The notes under the pieces were generated by a model. That model saw nothing but the letters and a program-made list of their open reading frames with translations. It was not told where the DNA came from and did no database searches. DNA of 32,631 nucleotides from an uncultured Chthonomonas sp. (GTDB lineage Bacteria; Armatimonadota; Chthonomonadetes; Chthonomonadales; Chthonomonadaceae): contig CAIJLM010000674.1 in NCBI GenBank assembly GCA_903821495.1, positions 1-32,631 of the forward strand, in the 5' to 3' direction. The translations under genes were made by a program, and so were the position numbers. Shown piece by piece: positions 13,703-27,813 of this stretch (positions are counted from its first letter, which is position 1; each line of letters begins with the position of its first letter).

Positions 13703-14434
13703 TTAGCCGCCCGTAAGACGGCACACGGGGCAGAGACTGTACTCTGTGTTCTGCGCCGCCTGACAGCGCGTACAGACCTTCCAGCCGCGTTCGATACGCC
13801 AGTGCCGCAGTTTCGCATCTAGCGCGAGGCGATGGGCTATCTTTTCGCGTATCACATCGTCCTTGATATAGATTAACTCCTCCAGTTGGGCGCGAAGTTG
13901 CCCCCTCTCGGCAGGTTCTAAAATCACAGACTTTAACTCTTCGAGGAGAGGAGTCTCAGGAACGATGGGAACGCTCTCCTTCTTGAGTTTACGAACACGA
14001 AAACGAATATCCGTAATACGCGACTTGCCTAAAAAACGGTTTAGTTCCGCAAGGATACGAGGTTTATAGAGAGTCAACTCGTGCGACCAGACGGAACTTT
14101 TTGTATTCACAAAAAGAACCCCGCCGTTCACGCTCTCCGCCTCGGTAGCCCCCGCCGCTTGGGGCCCCACCACGCGCTCCCAGTAGAGCGTAGCGAGATT
14201 CCCCTGCAACTGCTCGGCGTTCTCGTGGCTCTCCATCGCATGAGAGACGGAGCGCATGGCTTGAGTCAGGTCATTGGCAAGAGGTCCCTGCTTCCCTTGA
14301 AGGCGGTGGCGCAGGCTTTCGTCTATCTGTTTTGCGTCGTCAAGAGGCGATTTCAACCGATTCGGAGGCTGTTTCGGGCTTGTTAGCCTCTTTTTCGGCG
14401 AGAATTCGGCTATTTCGGGTTTTTCTTCGGACAT
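13703..14434 (-). CDS. dciA: DciA-like helicase-loader protein (DUF721) with C-terminal zinc ribbon
   Basis: 243 residues. The middle section (about 75-150) is the KH-like DUF721/DciA domain: WERVVGPQAAGATEAESVNG, GVLFVNTKSSVWSHELTLYK and ILAELNRFLG are typical. DciA loads or positions the replicative helicase DnaB in bacteria lacking DnaC/DnaI. A charged helical stretch (165-215) leads to a four-Cys zinc ribbon, C221-x2-C224 and C235-x2-C238, not part of the minimal domain. The ATG at 14434 overlaps recF by 95 bp; a TTG near 14360 is an alternative. recF-dciA order is the same as in Mycobacterium, where dnaA-dnaN precede. Confidence 0.8.
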   Translation of the reverse strand: MSEEKPEIAEFSPKKRLTSPKQPPNRLKSPLDDAKQIDESLRHRLQGKQGPLANDLTQAMRSVSHAMESHENAEQLQGNLATLYWERVVGPQAAGATEAESVNGGVLFVNTKSSVWSHELTLYKPRILAELNRFLGKSRITDIRFRVRKLKKESVPIVPETPLLEELKSVILEPAERGQLRAQLEELIYIKDDVIREKIAHRLALDAKLRHWRIERGWKVCTRCQAAQNTEYSLCPVCRLTGG

Positions 14435-15698
14435 CAGGCGTTACCACTCCATTGGCGACTTGAAAGGTGGTCGCCTCTGCAAGTATCTCTTTGGGAAAGG
14501 GACGTAAACTGGTGCAGGTGATAAAAGTTTGACATCTGCGGCGCACCCACTCTAGCAGGTGAGCGCGGCGATTATCGTCTAAATCGCTCATCACATCGTC
14601 AAGAAGCATTACGGGCGGCTCCCCCACGTAGTCTTGAATCAGTTGAAATTCGGCGAGTTTCAGAGCGAGAGTCGCGGTTCTCTGCTGTCCCTGCGAACCG
14701 TAGAGCCGCGTTTCCGCCCCGTCAATAAAGAATCCAATGTCATCTCGTTGGGGTCCCAGCAGAGTCACGCCTCTACGCGCCTCTTCTAGCCCCATCTCCG
14801 CCATCTGCTCGCGAAACGCCGCCGCGATTGCCTCCGTGTCACTGAGGGGCGATTCCACGCGAGTCTGAGGGGCTGACTCGCTTGCAGGAGTCGCATCTTG
14901 AATCTCAGTCAGGTATTGCGTCTCCCTATTTGTCTCTCGAATCATCGAGTTATCAACAACAGCGGTTGAAAGTGTTGAAAGTTCAGCGGGTTTCGGGAGG
15001 CGAACACTCGGCAGATAGCGAATTTCGAGGTTTTCCTTGCCGTCTGTCAAGGCGCGATGCACCTGATTCGCAAGCGGAGCCAGCCGCTCAAGGTAGAATC
15101 TCCTCTTTTCGATGATTGGAGCGCCATAGTTTATCAACTGCTCGTTCCACACATCCAGCCCCAACTCCTTCGGCGGGCGGGGGCGGTCTCTCAACTCTTT
15201 CAACAGGCGGTTGCGTTGCGCTAAAACGCGCTTATAGTGACCTAAGTCGTATACGTAGCGCGGACTTATCTGCGAAATCTCGATGTTGAGATAGTGCCGC
15301 CTGTCCGCGGGTTCGCCCATCACGATAACAAGGTCTATCGAACCAAAGAAGACAGCGTTGAACTGCCCTAGTATATCAACGACCCTTCCGCGCTTGCTTC
15401 CGTTGATTTTGACCTCTTTTTTGTCGGTCTGAAAAACGGAGACCTCTAAATCCACATCCCCCTGACACTCTCGAACCACATCTGCCATAACGCGCGCTAC
15501 ATCTCCGCCACGAAAGATAAGTTCCGACTCTCTGCTCGCCCGCAGAGAGCGAGTCGTAGCCAGTAGCGAGAGGGCTTCCAGCACATTCGTTTTGCCCTGC
15601 GCGTTCTGTCCGTAGAGGATGTTCACTCCCTCCCCCGGATGAAGTTCCAGCGAGGGGTAGTTCCTAAATTGGTTCAGTTTTAGATAGCGAACACGCAT
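14340..15698 (-). CDS. recF: DNA replication/repair protein RecF
   Basis: SMC-like ATPase that loads RecA at single-strand gaps. I place the start at the ATG at 15698 because RecF proteins begin MRVRYLKLNQFRNY; reading on to 15815 would add 39 residues unlike the family. Walker A is GQNAQGKT (30-37), the signature is GSQGQQRT and Walker B is VMLLDDVMSDLD. The protein is 452 residues, longer than the usual 360-400. The excess is a variable insertion (about 245-295) and a C-terminal tail that overlaps dciA. GGAG upstream of the ATG sits inside the small hairpin TTTTGG/CCAAAA (15703-15718), which could limit translation. It heads the recF-dciA-comEC-nitrilase operon and is transcribed away from the unusual region at 15699-16316. 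Confidence 0.93.
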   Translation of the reverse strand: MRVRYLKLNQFRNYPSLELHPGEGVNILYGQNAQGKTNVLEALSLLATTRSLRASRESELIFRGGDVARVMADVVRECQGDVDLEVSVFQTDKKEVKINGSKRGRVVDILGQFNAVFFGSIDLVIVMGEPADRRHYLNIEISQISPRYVYDLGHYKRVLAQRNRLLKELRDRPRPPKELGLDVWNEQLINYGAPIIEKRRFYLERLAPLANQVHRALTDGKENLEIRYLPSVRLPKPAELSTLSTAVVDNSMIRETNRETQYLTEIQDATPASESAPQTRVESPLSDTEAIAAAFREQMAEMGLEEARRGVTLLGPQRDDIGFFIDGAETRLYGSQGQQRTATLALKLAEFQLIQDYVGEPPVMLLDDVMSDLDDNRRAHLLEWVRRRCQTFITCTSLRPFPKEILAEATTFQVANGVVTPDVRRKTRNSRILAEKEANKPETASESVEIAS

Positions 15699-15815
15699 TG
15701 CGTTTTGGGACTCCAAAAGAGGGATGGAATGAGCGAGAATAGAGTCGAGAGTAGACACAATTAGGATAGCATAGGATTCCACAAAACCTAAGAGAAGAGA
15801 ATCAGAATCATACAC

Positions 15816-15821
15816 ATTATA
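15816..15821 (-). promoter_or_regulatory. -10 box for recF operon
   Basis: A perfect TATAAT on the minus strand, 118 bp before the recF ATG, within an AT-rich segment. The -35 region (CATAAG) is weak, and GANTC sites lie directly on both sides (15805-15809, 15829-15833), so methylation of those sites could influence it. This is a prediction only. Confidence 0.45.
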
Positions 15822-15893
15822 TATTTAAGAATCTAATGCTTATGATTCTTATTGTGTTGAAAAGACTCATAACTTGGCTCTTAGTAGACGGTT

Positions 15894-15962
15894 GAATCTC
15901 ATTTTGAATCGCATTGAATCCAGACTCTGACGGATTCTGATAGACTCTGCGAGATTCTCACA
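15894..15962. repeat. GANTC-containing 10-bp tandem array
   Basis: GANTC starts at 15894, 15906, 15916, 15923, 15933, 15943 and 15953. The last four units are ten-base repeats reading GACTCTGACG, GATTCTGATA, GACTCTGCGA and GATTCTCACA. The 10-bp spacing puts the sites on one face of the helix, as expected for cooperative protein binding. It resembles iterons but lacks a plasmid context. Confidence 0.6.
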
Positions 15963-16095
15963 GCGCAAAAGAGTCTACTGAATCGGTATTTAGCAGGACA
16001 AAAGTTTTCAACAATCGCCCCGATTCTCTGTTGAAAACTCTGTTGAAAACTGCCGAGTTTTCAACGGCTTTCAACAGCCTTTTTGGAATCAGGCG

Positions 16096-16160
16096 AGTTT
16101 TGAGTCCTAAGACTCAAAACTATACCCCTAGTTTTGAGTCTTAGACTCAAAACTTAGGGG
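16096..16160. repeat. Two neighbouring large inverted repeats with shared arms
   Basis: Repeat one pairs AGTTTTGAGTC (16096-16106) with GACTCAAAACT (16111-16121) across CTAA. Repeat two pairs CCCCTAGTTTTGAGTC (16125-16140) with GACTCAAAACTTAGGGG (16144-16160), a 16-bp stem with one bulge. The arms are the same, so they could also pair with each other. Each arm carries a GANTC site. No run of U follows in either direction, so neither is a standard terminator, though they lie past the 3' end of the kinase gene. Confidence 0.7.
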
Positions 16161-16316
16161 AATCTTTCAACATAGTATAAGTTTAAGTGTTAAAAATAGT
16201 CTTTTGTGGCGAAGCCTCGCCTTGCTATTGTTGAAAACTCTGTTGAAAACTCACTTTTTTGTTGAAAACTTTAGACTCAATTATGACCAAAAACTGGTAC
16301 AAAATGAGTCGTGGAA

Positions 16317-18872
16317 TCAGGCTTCTAGGGCTTCGCGCACACTACGTAAAAGGTCTGCTTTGTGGAAGGGTTTGGAGAGGAATCGGGCTTCATTCGTGAG
16401 AAGCTGTTTCTCTAACGACTGGCTATCGGAGTGCGCGGACATATAGAGAATTTTGGCGGCGGGGAGTATCTGCTTGATGCGGCTCGCTAGCTCTAGCCCG
16501 TTCATTTGAGGCATGACGATATCCGTTAGGAGAAGGTGGATAGGCTCTTTAATCTCCTCTAACTTCTTCAGAGCGGCGGCTCCGTTTTCGGCGGAGAGTA
16601 CGCGATAGCCACGCTCCTGCAAAGCCTGAACTGCGATGTCCCGAACGAAGGATTCGTCGTCTACAATTAGAACTGTTTCTGAACCCGAGTAGTCTGTGAG
16701 TTTGTCTCTATCTTGGGTTTGGGTGAGAGCCTCCGCTGTTGTTGGCAGGTGAATAGTGAAAGCGGTTCCCTCTCCTAAAACGCTTTCAAAAGTGATACTG
16801 CCTCGATGGCGTTGGACGATTCCGTAGCAGATTGATAAGCCCAATCCTGTGCCTTTACCCTGCCCTTTTGTAGTGAAAAATGGCTCGAAGGCGCGTTGTC
16901 GAGCCTCCTCCGATACTCCAGTCCCTGTATCTTTTACGCGAATAACGAGGTAGTTTCCTTGCGATAATCCCTGCGCTACCCTATCCCCAAGGTGAACGTT
17001 ACTCGTCTCAATACTCAAGGTTCCGCCGTTAGGCATTGCATCGTTCGCGTTGAGGGCTAGATTCATTAAAACCTGTTGAACCTGAGTAGTGTCGGCGCTA
17101 ATAGTGGGGTGACTAGCCATTTTTTGGAATACAAACGTCGTTTTTTGTCCAAGAAGGGGCGTGATGAGACCTATCGTCTCTTCGATAACTGAGTGTACAT
17201 CCACCACTCTGGGAGTGATAATTTGACGACGCGCAAAAGTAAGTAGTTGGGAGGTTAGCCCCGCCGCTCGTTCGCTACTGATACGGATGTTGCTGAGGTA
17301 GCGGGTAAGAGGCGTATCTGTGGGGGCTGACATCTCCGCCAACTCCACATAACCTATAATCGCTGTGAGGATATTGTTGAAGTCGTGGGCGATTCCTCCG
17401 GCGATATGCCCCATACTCTGCATCTTCTGTGTTTGAAGAATCTGGTGTTCTAGCTCCTTCTGGCGGGTAATATCCGCCGCAACCCCGACAATGCGATAGA
17501 GCGTTCCTGATGAGTTGTAGATGGGGTAGGCGCGATGATGAATCCAGCGAACCTCTCCATTGGGGCGAACAATACGATAGTTGATGTCTATCTCTTCCCC
17601 TGCTAACTCCCTCCGCTGCATATCTATCACATAAGCGTAGTCTTCCGGGTGAATCGCTTTTTGGTAGGCGAGCGGGTTTTTATACAGAGTCTCCTGCGAG
17701 ATGCCCCACACCTTAGAGTAGGCGGAGTTGATGTAGAGTAGTTTGAACTGGAAGATGTCGAATATCCAGAAAATCTCGTCAACGCTCTCGGCAATCTGTC
17801 GAAACCGCTCGTCGCTCTCTCGGAAGGCGAGTTCCGCGCTCTTACGCTCCGTGATGTCTTGCAAAATTCCTAAGCAACCATAAACCTCTCCCTCCGCGTC
17901 CCGTAACAGAAGAGAGTTGTCTGCGAAGTAACGAAGTTTACCGCTCTTTGTAATATAGGATTCATCCGTTTGCCACATCTCTATTTTTCCGGCGCGGAAT
18001 AGCGCTACGGCTTCCGCCACCGTCAACCCTTTGAGCGCCCCTCTCATCTCAGGGGAAAAAGCGATGGTTTGGAGCAGGTCGGGGGTCACCTCCTCTGAGT
18101 TGTACCCCAACAACTCTCCGATACTTGTGTCTATAAAGGTGTAGGATTCGTTACGGAAGTCGTATTGAAAGACAACGCCGCCCATAGACCGAATGGCTTT
18201 GCGGTAGAGCGCTTCACGGCTTTTCGTCTCGGCTTCCGCTCTGATTCGAGCCTCCTGTAGGCGGTATTCGGTGCAAAGATGGGCTAGAGTGAGCGCGTAA
18301 AGCCGGGCCGTCTCTTGATTAGAGGGGGTTATTGGTCGCTGAGAGAGGAGATTATCTATCTCTAATAAGCCTATAACTCTCTCTCCATCCCATAAAGAGA
18401 CGGTCAAATGCTCTCCGTAGCCTACTTCGTCGCCTATATGGTTCTGAATCTCTAGCCTAGGGTAGTAGACCCAACTCTCCTCTTGCAGGCGTGGCAATAG
18501 AGACGAATCTGGGGGGAGTGTGTACGCTTGAGAACGCTCATCGCGAATATCGCCTTTTTCATCTGTTCCATAGGAGCCTTGTAGTTGGTAACTATCCGCA
18601 ACAAAGAACCAGATGCTAATGCGGTCAAAGCCCAAACGTTCACGCCCAAGCATTACGGCGCGTCTGCAAAGTTCATCAAACGATACTACGCCAGCCAACT
18701 CTTTTTCAACTGCACGAAGTTCTCGATGAAGTTGGTAGAAATCCTGTAGCGTAGCCTCTCGCTCAGACAGCCGCTCCGAAAGGGAGTGGTTGAGCTTTTG
18801 TAGACGCGCATTTTCGGCTTGTAGCGCCTCTAAGTCGCTATGGGGGGATGGGGTGGTTTTTTGTTCGCTCAT
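16317..18872 (-). CDS. Hybrid sensor histidine kinase (GAF-PAS-PAS-HisKA-HATPase-REC)
   Basis: An 851-residue, apparently cytoplasmic kinase with no membrane segment. A coiled coil (about 12-60) is followed by a GAF-like domain (60-205), two PAS/PAC units (about 220-345 and 350-480), and HisKA with phospho-acceptor H496 in GGIAHDFNN. Next come the ATPase domain with N-box LMNLALNANDAM and G-boxes DTGTGV and GKGTGLGLS (595-710), and a C-terminal receiver domain (733-851) with D739/D740, phospho-site D784 (LLTDIVMP) and K834. The HDFNN type of H-box belongs to the NtrB/HPK4-like kinases. No partner regulator or output gene is adjacent, so an orphan phosphorelay component is likely. Its stop overlaps a GANTC site of the region downstream. 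Confidence 0.9.
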   Translation of the reverse strand: MSEQKTTPSPHSDLEALQAENARLQKLNHSLSERLSEREATLQDFYQLHRELRAVEKELAGVVSFDELCRRAVMLGRERLGFDRISIWFFVADSYQLQGSYGTDEKGDIRDERSQAYTLPPDSSLLPRLQEESWVYYPRLEIQNHIGDEVGYGEHLTVSLWDGERVIGLLEIDNLLSQRPITPSNQETARLYALTLAHLCTEYRLQEARIRAEAETKSREALYRKAIRSMGGVVFQYDFRNESYTFIDTSIGELLGYNSEEVTPDLLQTIAFSPEMRGALKGLTVAEAVALFRAGKIEMWQTDESYITKSGKLRYFADNSLLLRDAEGEVYGCLGILQDITERKSAELAFRESDERFRQIAESVDEIFWIFDIFQFKLLYINSAYSKVWGISQETLYKNPLAYQKAIHPEDYAYVIDMQRRELAGEEIDINYRIVRPNGEVRWIHHRAYPIYNSSGTLYRIVGVAADITRQKELEHQILQTQKMQSMGHIAGGIAHDFNNILTAIIGYVELAEMSAPTDTPLTRYLSNIRISSERAAGLTSQLLTFARRQIITPRVVDVHSVIEETIGLITPLLGQKTTFVFQKMASHPTISADTTQVQQVLMNLALNANDAMPNGGTLSIETSNVHLGDRVAQGLSQGNYLVIRVKDTGTGVSEEARQRAFEPFFTTKGQGKGTGLGLSICYGIVQRHRGSITFESVLGEGTAFTIHLPTTAEALTQTQDRDKLTDYSGSETVLIVDDESFVRDIAVQALQERGYRVLSAENGAAALKKLEEIKEPIHLLLTDIVMPQMNGLELASRIKQILPAAKILYMSAHSDSQSLEKQLLTNEARFLSKPFHKADLLRSVREALEA

Positions 18873-26709: not shown

Positions 26710-27813
26710 ATGTTATCCGAACAGACCCAGTACGCTCTTCGTAAAGCAGGTTGGTCGGAAGAGAGGAGGCTAGAGCCAGAGGCGATTGAGCGACTCTATC
26801 TCTCTATGGGCATCCCTTGCTTTCCTATGGTTCTGGAGTTTTTGCAGCAGTATGGCGGGCTCGTCATTGAACGCAGGTGGACAAAGGCGCGCTCCACTCA
26901 GTTTGCTTTTGATTTCGCTTCGCTACTGCCTTACATGACTCCCTACTGGATGAGTGATTTAGAGGAAGAACTCGTACCTCCAATCTGTCCTATCGGTAAG
27001 GTGGCAGAAGGTTACTATACGTTGATGATGGATGAAGCGGGCAGGGTCTACGCTCACGGAGACGGCGTGTGGTTTTTGGGGTATACGCCCGATGAGGCGC
27101 TGAATCTGCTTTGCGAAGGTGGAGACCTGTTCGGAGAACTGCCGTATGAGGTGAACAAATACCCGGAGGTGCAAAGTCCGCCCATTGAGATAGAAGGTCA
27201 GCAGGTAGCGGTTGCATCGGCTATGCCTTCAGAGTACCAAGCCCTGTTGAAACTCCTTCCGGGGTGTAAAATTACAGGGATGGCGCGGTATGCGTATGTG
27301 GAGCCAACGGCAAGCGAGGTCAAGTACAATCTGCTTCCTGAAGACCTATTCGAGTTTTCAGAGGGCCCCATTCTTATAGATGTAGACACAGGCGACAGTA
27401 TCGGTCTCCACTGGTATAAGAGTATCACATCCCTCTATGTCTGGTTAGAGCGTAGTTCGTCGCTCCCGTTTAGGGCGCGTTATCCGATAGAGGAGGCGGG
27501 GCGCTATCACCGGATAGAGATTACCCATCCCGCCTATAGCTCCGCTGATTTGCATCGAGTCGTAGGTAGCGCTATTCAAGAAACTGTTGTGTTTAGATAC
27601 CCTTTCGCTCAGGAGAATCGATTCATGATGACGGCGGTGCAGTTCACGCTGGACAACGGGAGTTATCTGACATTCGCCCACGACGAGGCGAAGCGAATAG
27701 AGAACTTGGGCGTTCTAGTGACGACGATAGACTATACTCTCTTAAAAAAGAGCGATGGAACTCCTCTTTTCGAGAATAGCGAGGCTCTTTACCGCTTTGC
27801 GCTCTCTCCATAA
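26710..27813 (+). CDS. SUKH-3-like immunity protein with a second unknown domain
   Basis: 367 residues. The N-terminal half fits SUKH-3 (immunity protein family, partners of YwqJ-like deaminase toxins): GW at 14-15, the helix VLEFLQQYGGL (41-51), PIG (94-96), DEAGRVY (108-114) and GYTPDEALNLL (124-134). The C-terminal half (about 160-367) is not recognised; it has mixed strands and helices, no signal and no transmembrane segment. No toxin gene, secretion gene or other immunity gene adjoins. A standalone SUKH protein may protect against neighbours' toxins or act as a spare. It has its own upstream gap (251 bp without other features) and a weak ribosome site, CAAGGAACC. Confidence 0.65.
   Translation: MLSEQTQYALRKAGWSEERRLEPEAIERLYLSMGIPCFPMVLEFLQQYGGLVIERRWTKARSTQFAFDFASLLPYMTPYWMSDLEEELVPPICPIGKVAEGYYTLMMDEAGRVYAHGDGVWFLGYTPDEALNLLCEGGDLFGELPYEVNKYPEVQSPPIEIEGQQVAVASAMPSEYQALLKLLPGCKITGMARYAYVEPTASEVKYNLLPEDLFEFSEGPILIDVDTGDSIGLHWYKSITSLYVWLERSSSLPFRARYPIEEAGRYHRIEITHPAYSSADLHRVVGSAIQETVVFRYPFAQENRFMMTAVQFTLDNGSYLTFAHDEAKRIENLGVLVTTIDYTLLKKSDGTPLFENSEALYRFALSP

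Follow-up and report, generated by a model that had tools for sequence, protein, structure and literature searches.

Is the intergenic stretch that separates recF from a hybrid histidine kinase gene in an uncultured Chthonomonas sp. a chromosomal origin of replication, and why are so many GANTC sites, the targets of CcrM-type methylases, crowded into it? The stretch lies in a piece of DNA of 32,631 nucleotides (hereafter the window), and the original prediction had put it forward as a candidate origin. We hold with high confidence that it serves a Chthonomonadaceae-like bacterium of the Armatimonadota as its DnaA-dependent chromosomal origin (oriC), because the order of dnaA, this region and recF is conserved in relatives, the GC skew of three relatives is lowest at the locus and that of a fourth changes sign there, its DnaA boxes covary with residue 435 of DnaA, and it carries a conserved unwinding module. 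Its GANTC cluster is, to judge from sequence comparison, selected. The explanation that fits best as a whole, and which we regard as reasonably probable, is that the methylation state of GANTC at oriC reports replication and is wired to ccrM autoregulation.

The genome to which the window belongs (G000) is a 5.37-Mb assembly of 733 contigs, among which the window is contig C674. Relatives are numbered G001, G002 and so on, and the family set comprises 17 genomes, G000 and 16 others. The RecF protein of G000 is 85-89% identical to those of its nearest relatives among the genomes searched, an Armatimonadetes metagenome-assembled genome and a bacterial assembly. Only one genome of the family, G005, is in a single contig (3.44 Mb). 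Character changes were counted on a family-only tree; an earlier tree with outgroups gave no resolution.

Origin identity of the region between recF and the kinase gene

The region is 618 bp long, has a GC content of 38% and includes the AT-rich tracts that had been noted before. In the seven relatives which have dnaA and recF close by on one contig (G003, G008, G009, G010, G012, G013, G020), recF is directly preceded by dnaA, the two genes being separated by an intergenic stretch, and the window region is therefore the former dnaA-recF intergenic stretch. G001, from the same genus, shows the arrangement of the window, with a kinase homologue that is 67% identical in the same place, where other relatives carry dnaA. 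The locus is composed as follows.

15699..16316, no strand: intergenic region from recF to the hybrid histidine kinase gene, the ancestral dnaA-recF intergenic region and very probable oriC (synteny, GC-skew minima, 27 GANTC)
14340..15698, minus strand: recF, syntenic marker of the origin (Pfam SMC_N; orthologues in 23 of the 24 relatives searched, only a fragment in the incomplete G016)
13703..14434, minus strand: dciA, helicase loader family (PF05258, E=3e-18)
16317..18872, minus strand: hybrid histidine kinase gene (domain matches to GAF, PAS, HisKA, HATPase and REC; homologue in G001), in the ancestral place of dnaA

The cumulative GC skew of G005, computed from forty 20-kb samples, has its minimum at 2.29-2.34 Mb and its maximum near 0.45-0.5 Mb. 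In this genome recF is found at 2.290 Mb and dnaA at 1.352 Mb, 0.94 Mb apart, which indicates that the departure of dnaA does not move the origin away from recF. The skew minimum of the contig lies at most 1 kb from the locus in G011 (122-kb contig) and G003 (24-kb contig), and in G008 the skew becomes positive at the locus. Two observations weigh on the other side: the minimum of the 35-kb contig of G001 is located elsewhere, at 28 kb, and the window's own contig, which is too short for a clear test, gives a weak signal. Weak or displaced skew is to be expected from such short pieces. The proposed check for a skew inflection elsewhere came out in favour of the original prediction, in the relatives and not in the window's short contig.

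The original prediction had also remarked that dnaA is missing. This holds for the assembly but not for the lineage: a DnaA domain search found no dnaA in the assemblies of G000 and G002, whereas the gene is intact on another contig in G001, intact in G003, and present with its 5' part at a contig end in G002. A genome without DnaA was rejected on account of these copies, and the absence of dnaA in G000 is most likely an assembly gap. A PF00308 match in G000 was rejected as DnaA; it lies beside a transposase-like open reading frame (ORF) and reads as an IstB/DnaC-type ATPase.

Seven exact copies of a predicted DnaA box could be identified in the region, in both orientations (TGTTGAAAA six times and TTTTCAACA once on the plus strand), and eleven copies of TTTTCAACA if one mismatch is allowed, which agrees with the about ten copies counted earlier. 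The reported identity of TTTTCAACA to TTATCCACA at 7 of 9 positions was reproduced; plain TTATCCACA boxes were looked for in the region and do not occur. The 5.37-Mb assembly contains 21 copies of TGTTGAAAAC, six of them within 266 bp at the origin and the remainder single. The boxes and the adjoining candidate unwinding elements are:

15813..15832, no strand: AT-rich tract adjoining the trios, candidate unwinding element
15833..15853, minus strand: DnaA-trio-like run of seven NAN triplets (AAT AAG AAT CAT AAG CAT TAG), separated from the box by a 1-bp spacer
15855..15863, minus strand: predicted DnaA box TTTTCAACA, recF-proximal, first element of the unwinding module
16005..16013, plus strand: predicted DnaA box TTTTCAACA
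16029..16037, minus strand: predicted DnaA box (TGTTGAAAA on plus)
16041..16049, minus strand: predicted DnaA box (TGTTGAAAA on plus)
16058..16066, plus strand: near-consensus box TTTTCAACG
16229..16237, minus strand: predicted DnaA box (TGTTGAAAA on plus)
16241..16249, minus strand: predicted DnaA box (TGTTGAAAA on plus)
16260..16268, minus strand: predicted DnaA box (TGTTGAAAA on plus)

The box 9-mers differ between the members of the family. TTTTCAACA is used in G000, G001 and G009, TTATCAACA or TTATTAACA in much of G003, G008, G011 and G012, and other relatives have TTTTCCACC (G005), TTATTCACC (G013) or TTATCCACC (G007). Helix 5 of DnaA reads RDHATV/I in the genome groups with TTTTCAACA and with TTATCAACA/TTATTAACA, and RDHTT or RDHST in the others. 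The DnaA proteins of the clade thus have Ala where E. coli has Thr435, alongside an A at base 6 of the box. Residue 435 (E. coli numbering) is a base-contacting position of domain IV (PMC5043019). A scan of 15 genomes that left base 6 free shows mainly A at this position in the nine with Ala435 and mainly C in the six with Thr/Ser435, some of the latter being represented by only 1-3 boxes. On the family tree base 6 and residue 435 each change twice; the series therefore comprises at least two joint changes of box and DnaA and not fifteen independent ones. From this covariation the repeated 9-mers are predicted to be DnaA boxes of a lineage-specific kind, and the family offers a natural series in which a contact residue of DnaA and the DnaA box change together.

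The unwinding module was searched for with the published pattern of the basal unwinding system (PMC8287927). At the recF end of the window region the elements follow each other as in that system: box, NAN-triplet run, AT tract. The differences are that some triplets (CAT) deviate from the 3'-GAT-5' (TAG) preference and that the spacer is 1 bp. Runs of at least seven NAN triplets appeared in 0.15% of shuffles, and G001, G003, G005, G006, G009, G011, G012 and G013 also have a box with first a NAN run and then a TA-rich tract after it.

The GANTC cluster at the origin

The 27 GANTC sites that had been counted between 15709 and 16318 are exact. A first-order Markov model of the region yields a mean of 3.5 and a maximum of 9 in 500 simulations, and in a separate test over all 16 palindromes of the form XXNXX GANTC reaches 27 versus 3.7 expected (z 12.9), the next-highest z being 4.3. 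It also ranks first among the palindromes in each of the seven cluster genomes tested. GATC does not occur in the region. Elsewhere in the window GANTC is found about 5 times per kb; the densest other 610 bp, with 12 sites, are inside recF, where the GANTC-rich stretch of the coding sequence (14601-14940) falls in a poorly conserved insertion. The cluster and its parts are:

15709..16318, no strand: full GANTC cluster, 27 predicted CcrM sites, the last of which straddles the kinase stop
15894..15957, no strand: helically phased GANTC array with sites at 15894, 15906, 15916, 15923, 15933, 15943 and 15953; similar spacing in G001, G003 and G009
16096..16121, no strand: inverted repeat AGTTTTGAGTC-ctaa-GACTCAAAACT with two GANTC sites inside, conserved in G001, G003 and G009
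16130..16154, no strand: second copy of the inverted repeat, two GANTC sites

Such a cluster is located upstream of recF in G000, G001, G003, G008, G009, G011 and G012, and beside dnaA in G015, where the origin is split between contigs; these eight genomes form part of one clade. It is absent at the origin of G004, G005, G006, G007, G010, G013 and G014. When G000 is aligned with G009 (54% identity), 15 of the 27 sites are kept against a background of 14% (binomial P 5e-7); the alignment with G012 keeps 9 of 27 against 6% (P 2e-5).

The spacing of the sites is in part conserved as well, the series 10, 10, 10, 7, 10, 12 being partly repeated between genera. Exact 10-bp steps number 17 versus 5 expected, a value which none of 2000 jitters reaches, although the strength of this test is overstated because related genomes were treated as separate. 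The excess is confined to exact 10-bp steps; helical phasing over all pooled GANTC spacings is not significant.

CcrM and the GANTC sites at the ccrM and dnaA promoters

The original prediction had suggested looking for a GANTC methylase gene, and a full-length CcrM orthologue is indeed encoded. Sixteen of the 17 family genomes, the exception being G010, each contain one high-scoring CcrM-type enzyme of 365-420 amino acids. The G000 protein can be aligned with Caulobacter CcrM (6pbd) over 334 residues and both domains (E=3e-137), shows the two-domain architecture with a DPPY motif and has a RAMA domain. By comparison with the structural paper (PMC6787082) it keeps the catalytic, base-contact and C-terminal DNA-binding residues except for Gly39 to Lys and Lys126 to Arg, two positions which contribute main-chain atoms in the CcrM structure (PMC6787082); Arg350 is outside the aligned part. 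No cognate restriction gene was seen next to ccrM in G003, the genome whose neighbouring ORF translations were inspected and resemble a transporter, a pyroglutamyl peptidase and a prenyl synthase. Full-length comparable enzymes are found in about 30 of the 121 genomes of the phylum. Every cluster genome has CcrM and G010 is without both, but six relatives with CcrM have no cluster. From the sequences we consider it very probable that CcrM methylates the GANTC sites of the origin.

Matches to N6/N4-methylase domains in general number 14 in G000, 20 in G002 and 1-9 in the other family genomes. In two genomes of another family of the order (G022:C172 and G023:C116), dnaA and a full-length ccrM-like gene are about 3 kb apart.

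Genome-wide clustering of GANTC in G000 was tested by pattern searches. A search for three GANTC in short gaps returned scattered single places and two loci with multiple overlapping hits, oriC and G000:C501:1065-1119. The latter, which precedes the ccrM start by about 125-180 bp, contains six GANTC at exact 10-bp steps; the other GANTC cluster of the genome is thus the ccrM promoter. The question whether the motif is equally dense at other places is answered by this one locus, the sole comparable cluster that was found. The six-site array makes it probable that enzyme supply and origin state are coupled.

Arrays with 10-bp steps, partly gapped, also precede ccrM in G001, G002, G003, G008, G009, G012 and G015; none was found at the ccrM promoters of G004-G007, G011, G013, G014 and G016. 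The pattern GANTC-N5-GANTC-N5-GANTC matches ccrM promoters, origins and three single places elsewhere in the 17 genomes, and outside the family the phased triple gives 0-3 sporadic matches per genome across the phylum. Lone 10-bp triples are present in G000:C96 (L292, position 400) and G001:C400 (L291, position 945), not at the same place in both, and may be due to chance.

Upstream of dnaA 5-12 GANTC are found in G001, G003, G008, G009, G012 and G015 and at most two in the others, including the clade member G011 with two; the word is thus concentrated less strongly there than at oriC and the ccrM promoter. The dnaA promoter region of G008 (L153, about 1050-1500) has 12 GANTC in 510 bp versus 2.2 expected and is a possible third target.

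How the GANTC sites might be read

A mechanism that would join these observations can be outlined. DnaA would bind the lineage-specific boxes (TTTTCAACA) and open the duplex at the module of box, DnaA-trio-like run and AT tract by recF. The CcrM orthologue would methylate the 27 GANTC sites, several of them one helical turn apart, and passage of the fork would leave them hemimethylated until CcrM acts again. A protein that distinguishes the methylation states, or DnaA itself, might then render the origin refractory or competent, while expression of ccrM would be fed back from its own GANTC array. We infer the methylation in the cell, its effect on initiation and the reader protein. That the methylation state regulates both initiation and ccrM seems somewhat probable to us. 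More tentatively, and at less than even chances, we propose that a CcrM-based replication-cycle circuit evolved in the Armatimonadota separately from the Alphaproteobacteria, with GANTC arrays, partly at one site per helical turn, at oriC and at the ccrM and dnaA promoters, which would be read by a SeqA-like or CtrA-like protein that times initiation by methylation state.

Several results weigh against such a role of methylation. Six relatives (G004, G005, G006, G007, G013, G014) have kept CcrM but have no cluster at the origin, and CcrM therefore does not need the cluster. On the family tree the cluster is a single gain, so that no more than one or two events stand behind its occurring together with the array at the ccrM promoter. 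Neither of the known readers was found: SeqA (PF03925) had no match in 10 genomes, with a positive E. coli control, and GcrA (PF07750) none above the curated cut-off in 17 genomes. In Caulobacter the control of initiation does not require CcrM (PMC3973325). Finally, more than the methylase motif seems to be read. At conserved aligned sites the centre base is kept in 101 of 123 cases versus 320 of 491 for the flanks, and the repeats at the ccrM promoters have A or C as the sense-strand centre in 48 of 51 sites. These repeats are oriented direct repeats of the form GAMTCAnnnn, mostly with an A after GANTC. Centre-base conservation and oriented repeats together make the involvement of a sequence-reading protein likely.

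The same features would be expected of an oriC whose GANTC words serve chiefly as half-sites for a sequence-specific, tandem-binding CtrA/OmpR-like regulator, with one protein per 10-bp repeat, which controls oriC and the ccrM promoter while methylation is secondary or incidental. Winged-helix response regulators fit direct repeats of 10-11 bp, CtrA acts at both Cori and ccrM in Caulobacter, and a hybrid histidine kinase gene adjoins the origin. However, the origin sites vary in flanks and centres and have only GANTC in common, many of them are out of the 10-bp register, and a plain operator explains neither why the word is that of CcrM nor why an array is positioned at ccrM. We therefore regard an operator of this kind as unlikely, if the most serious competitor to regulation by methylation state.

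Clusters of DnaA boxes can titrate DnaA, and neither the window nor G001 has dnaA next to the region, as might suit a datA-like titration or regulatory region with the origin elsewhere. Such a region is very improbable in view of the skew minimum at the orthologous place in G003, G011 and G005, from which dnaA has also moved away, the conserved unwinding module and the order of dnaA, origin and recF in relatives. Also very improbable is the idea that base composition or the expansion of repeats produced the GANTC density. Although the region is AT-rich with short inverted repeats, other palindromes show no comparable enrichment, sites stay in aligned columns even between genera that share 54% identity, and the search of the genome gave a comparable cluster at the ccrM promoter only.

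Regulation by methylation state would have parallels among known systems. E. coli oriC contains 11 GATC in about 245 bp, a density similar to that of the window with 27 GANTC in about 0.61 kb. In both systems, too, some of the sites are phased and others lie near dnaA promoters; the Dam/SeqA system at that origin differs in the class of methylase, in the word and in having SeqA. With the CcrM-GcrA-CtrA circuit of the Alphaproteobacteria the family shares a CcrM orthologue and GANTC at the origin and at the ccrM and dnaA promoters, but it lacks a GcrA above the curated cut-off and its origin cluster is far denser. CcrM is known as a cell-cycle methylase of the Alphaproteobacteria. As their classical GANTC enzyme it controls transcription, and the GANTC state most probably regulates ccrM (PMC3973325).

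Clusters of orphan-methyltransferase motifs at origins were described for Dam/GATC in Gammaproteobacteria, TTAA in Arthrobacter, CTCGAG in Nocardia and an m4C motif in Haloarchaea (Blow et al. 2016, PMC4752239). The window resembles these in having a conserved non-coding motif cluster at the origin, in orthologous places of related genomes. In contrast to the four reported clusters, it combines GANTC with a CcrM orthologue in the Armatimonadota, a second, helically phased array is located at the methylase's own promoter, and several CcrM-bearing relatives are without the cluster. While methylase-motif clusters at origins are thus already known, a CcrM/GANTC origin with phased arrays outside the Alphaproteobacteria appears to be new. 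A partial search of the literature found no paper that joins GANTC and Armatimonadota, which is weak evidence of novelty because the search was partial. In another phylum, a CcrM orthologue coexists here with an origin as crowded in its sites as E. coli oriC is in GATC. If confirmed, this would be a further, separate case of methylation-marked origins and a concrete place to seek a new reader of the GANTC methylation state.

Apart from the origin, the window also contains a gene resembling those for immunity proteins of the SUKH-3 family (26710-27813).

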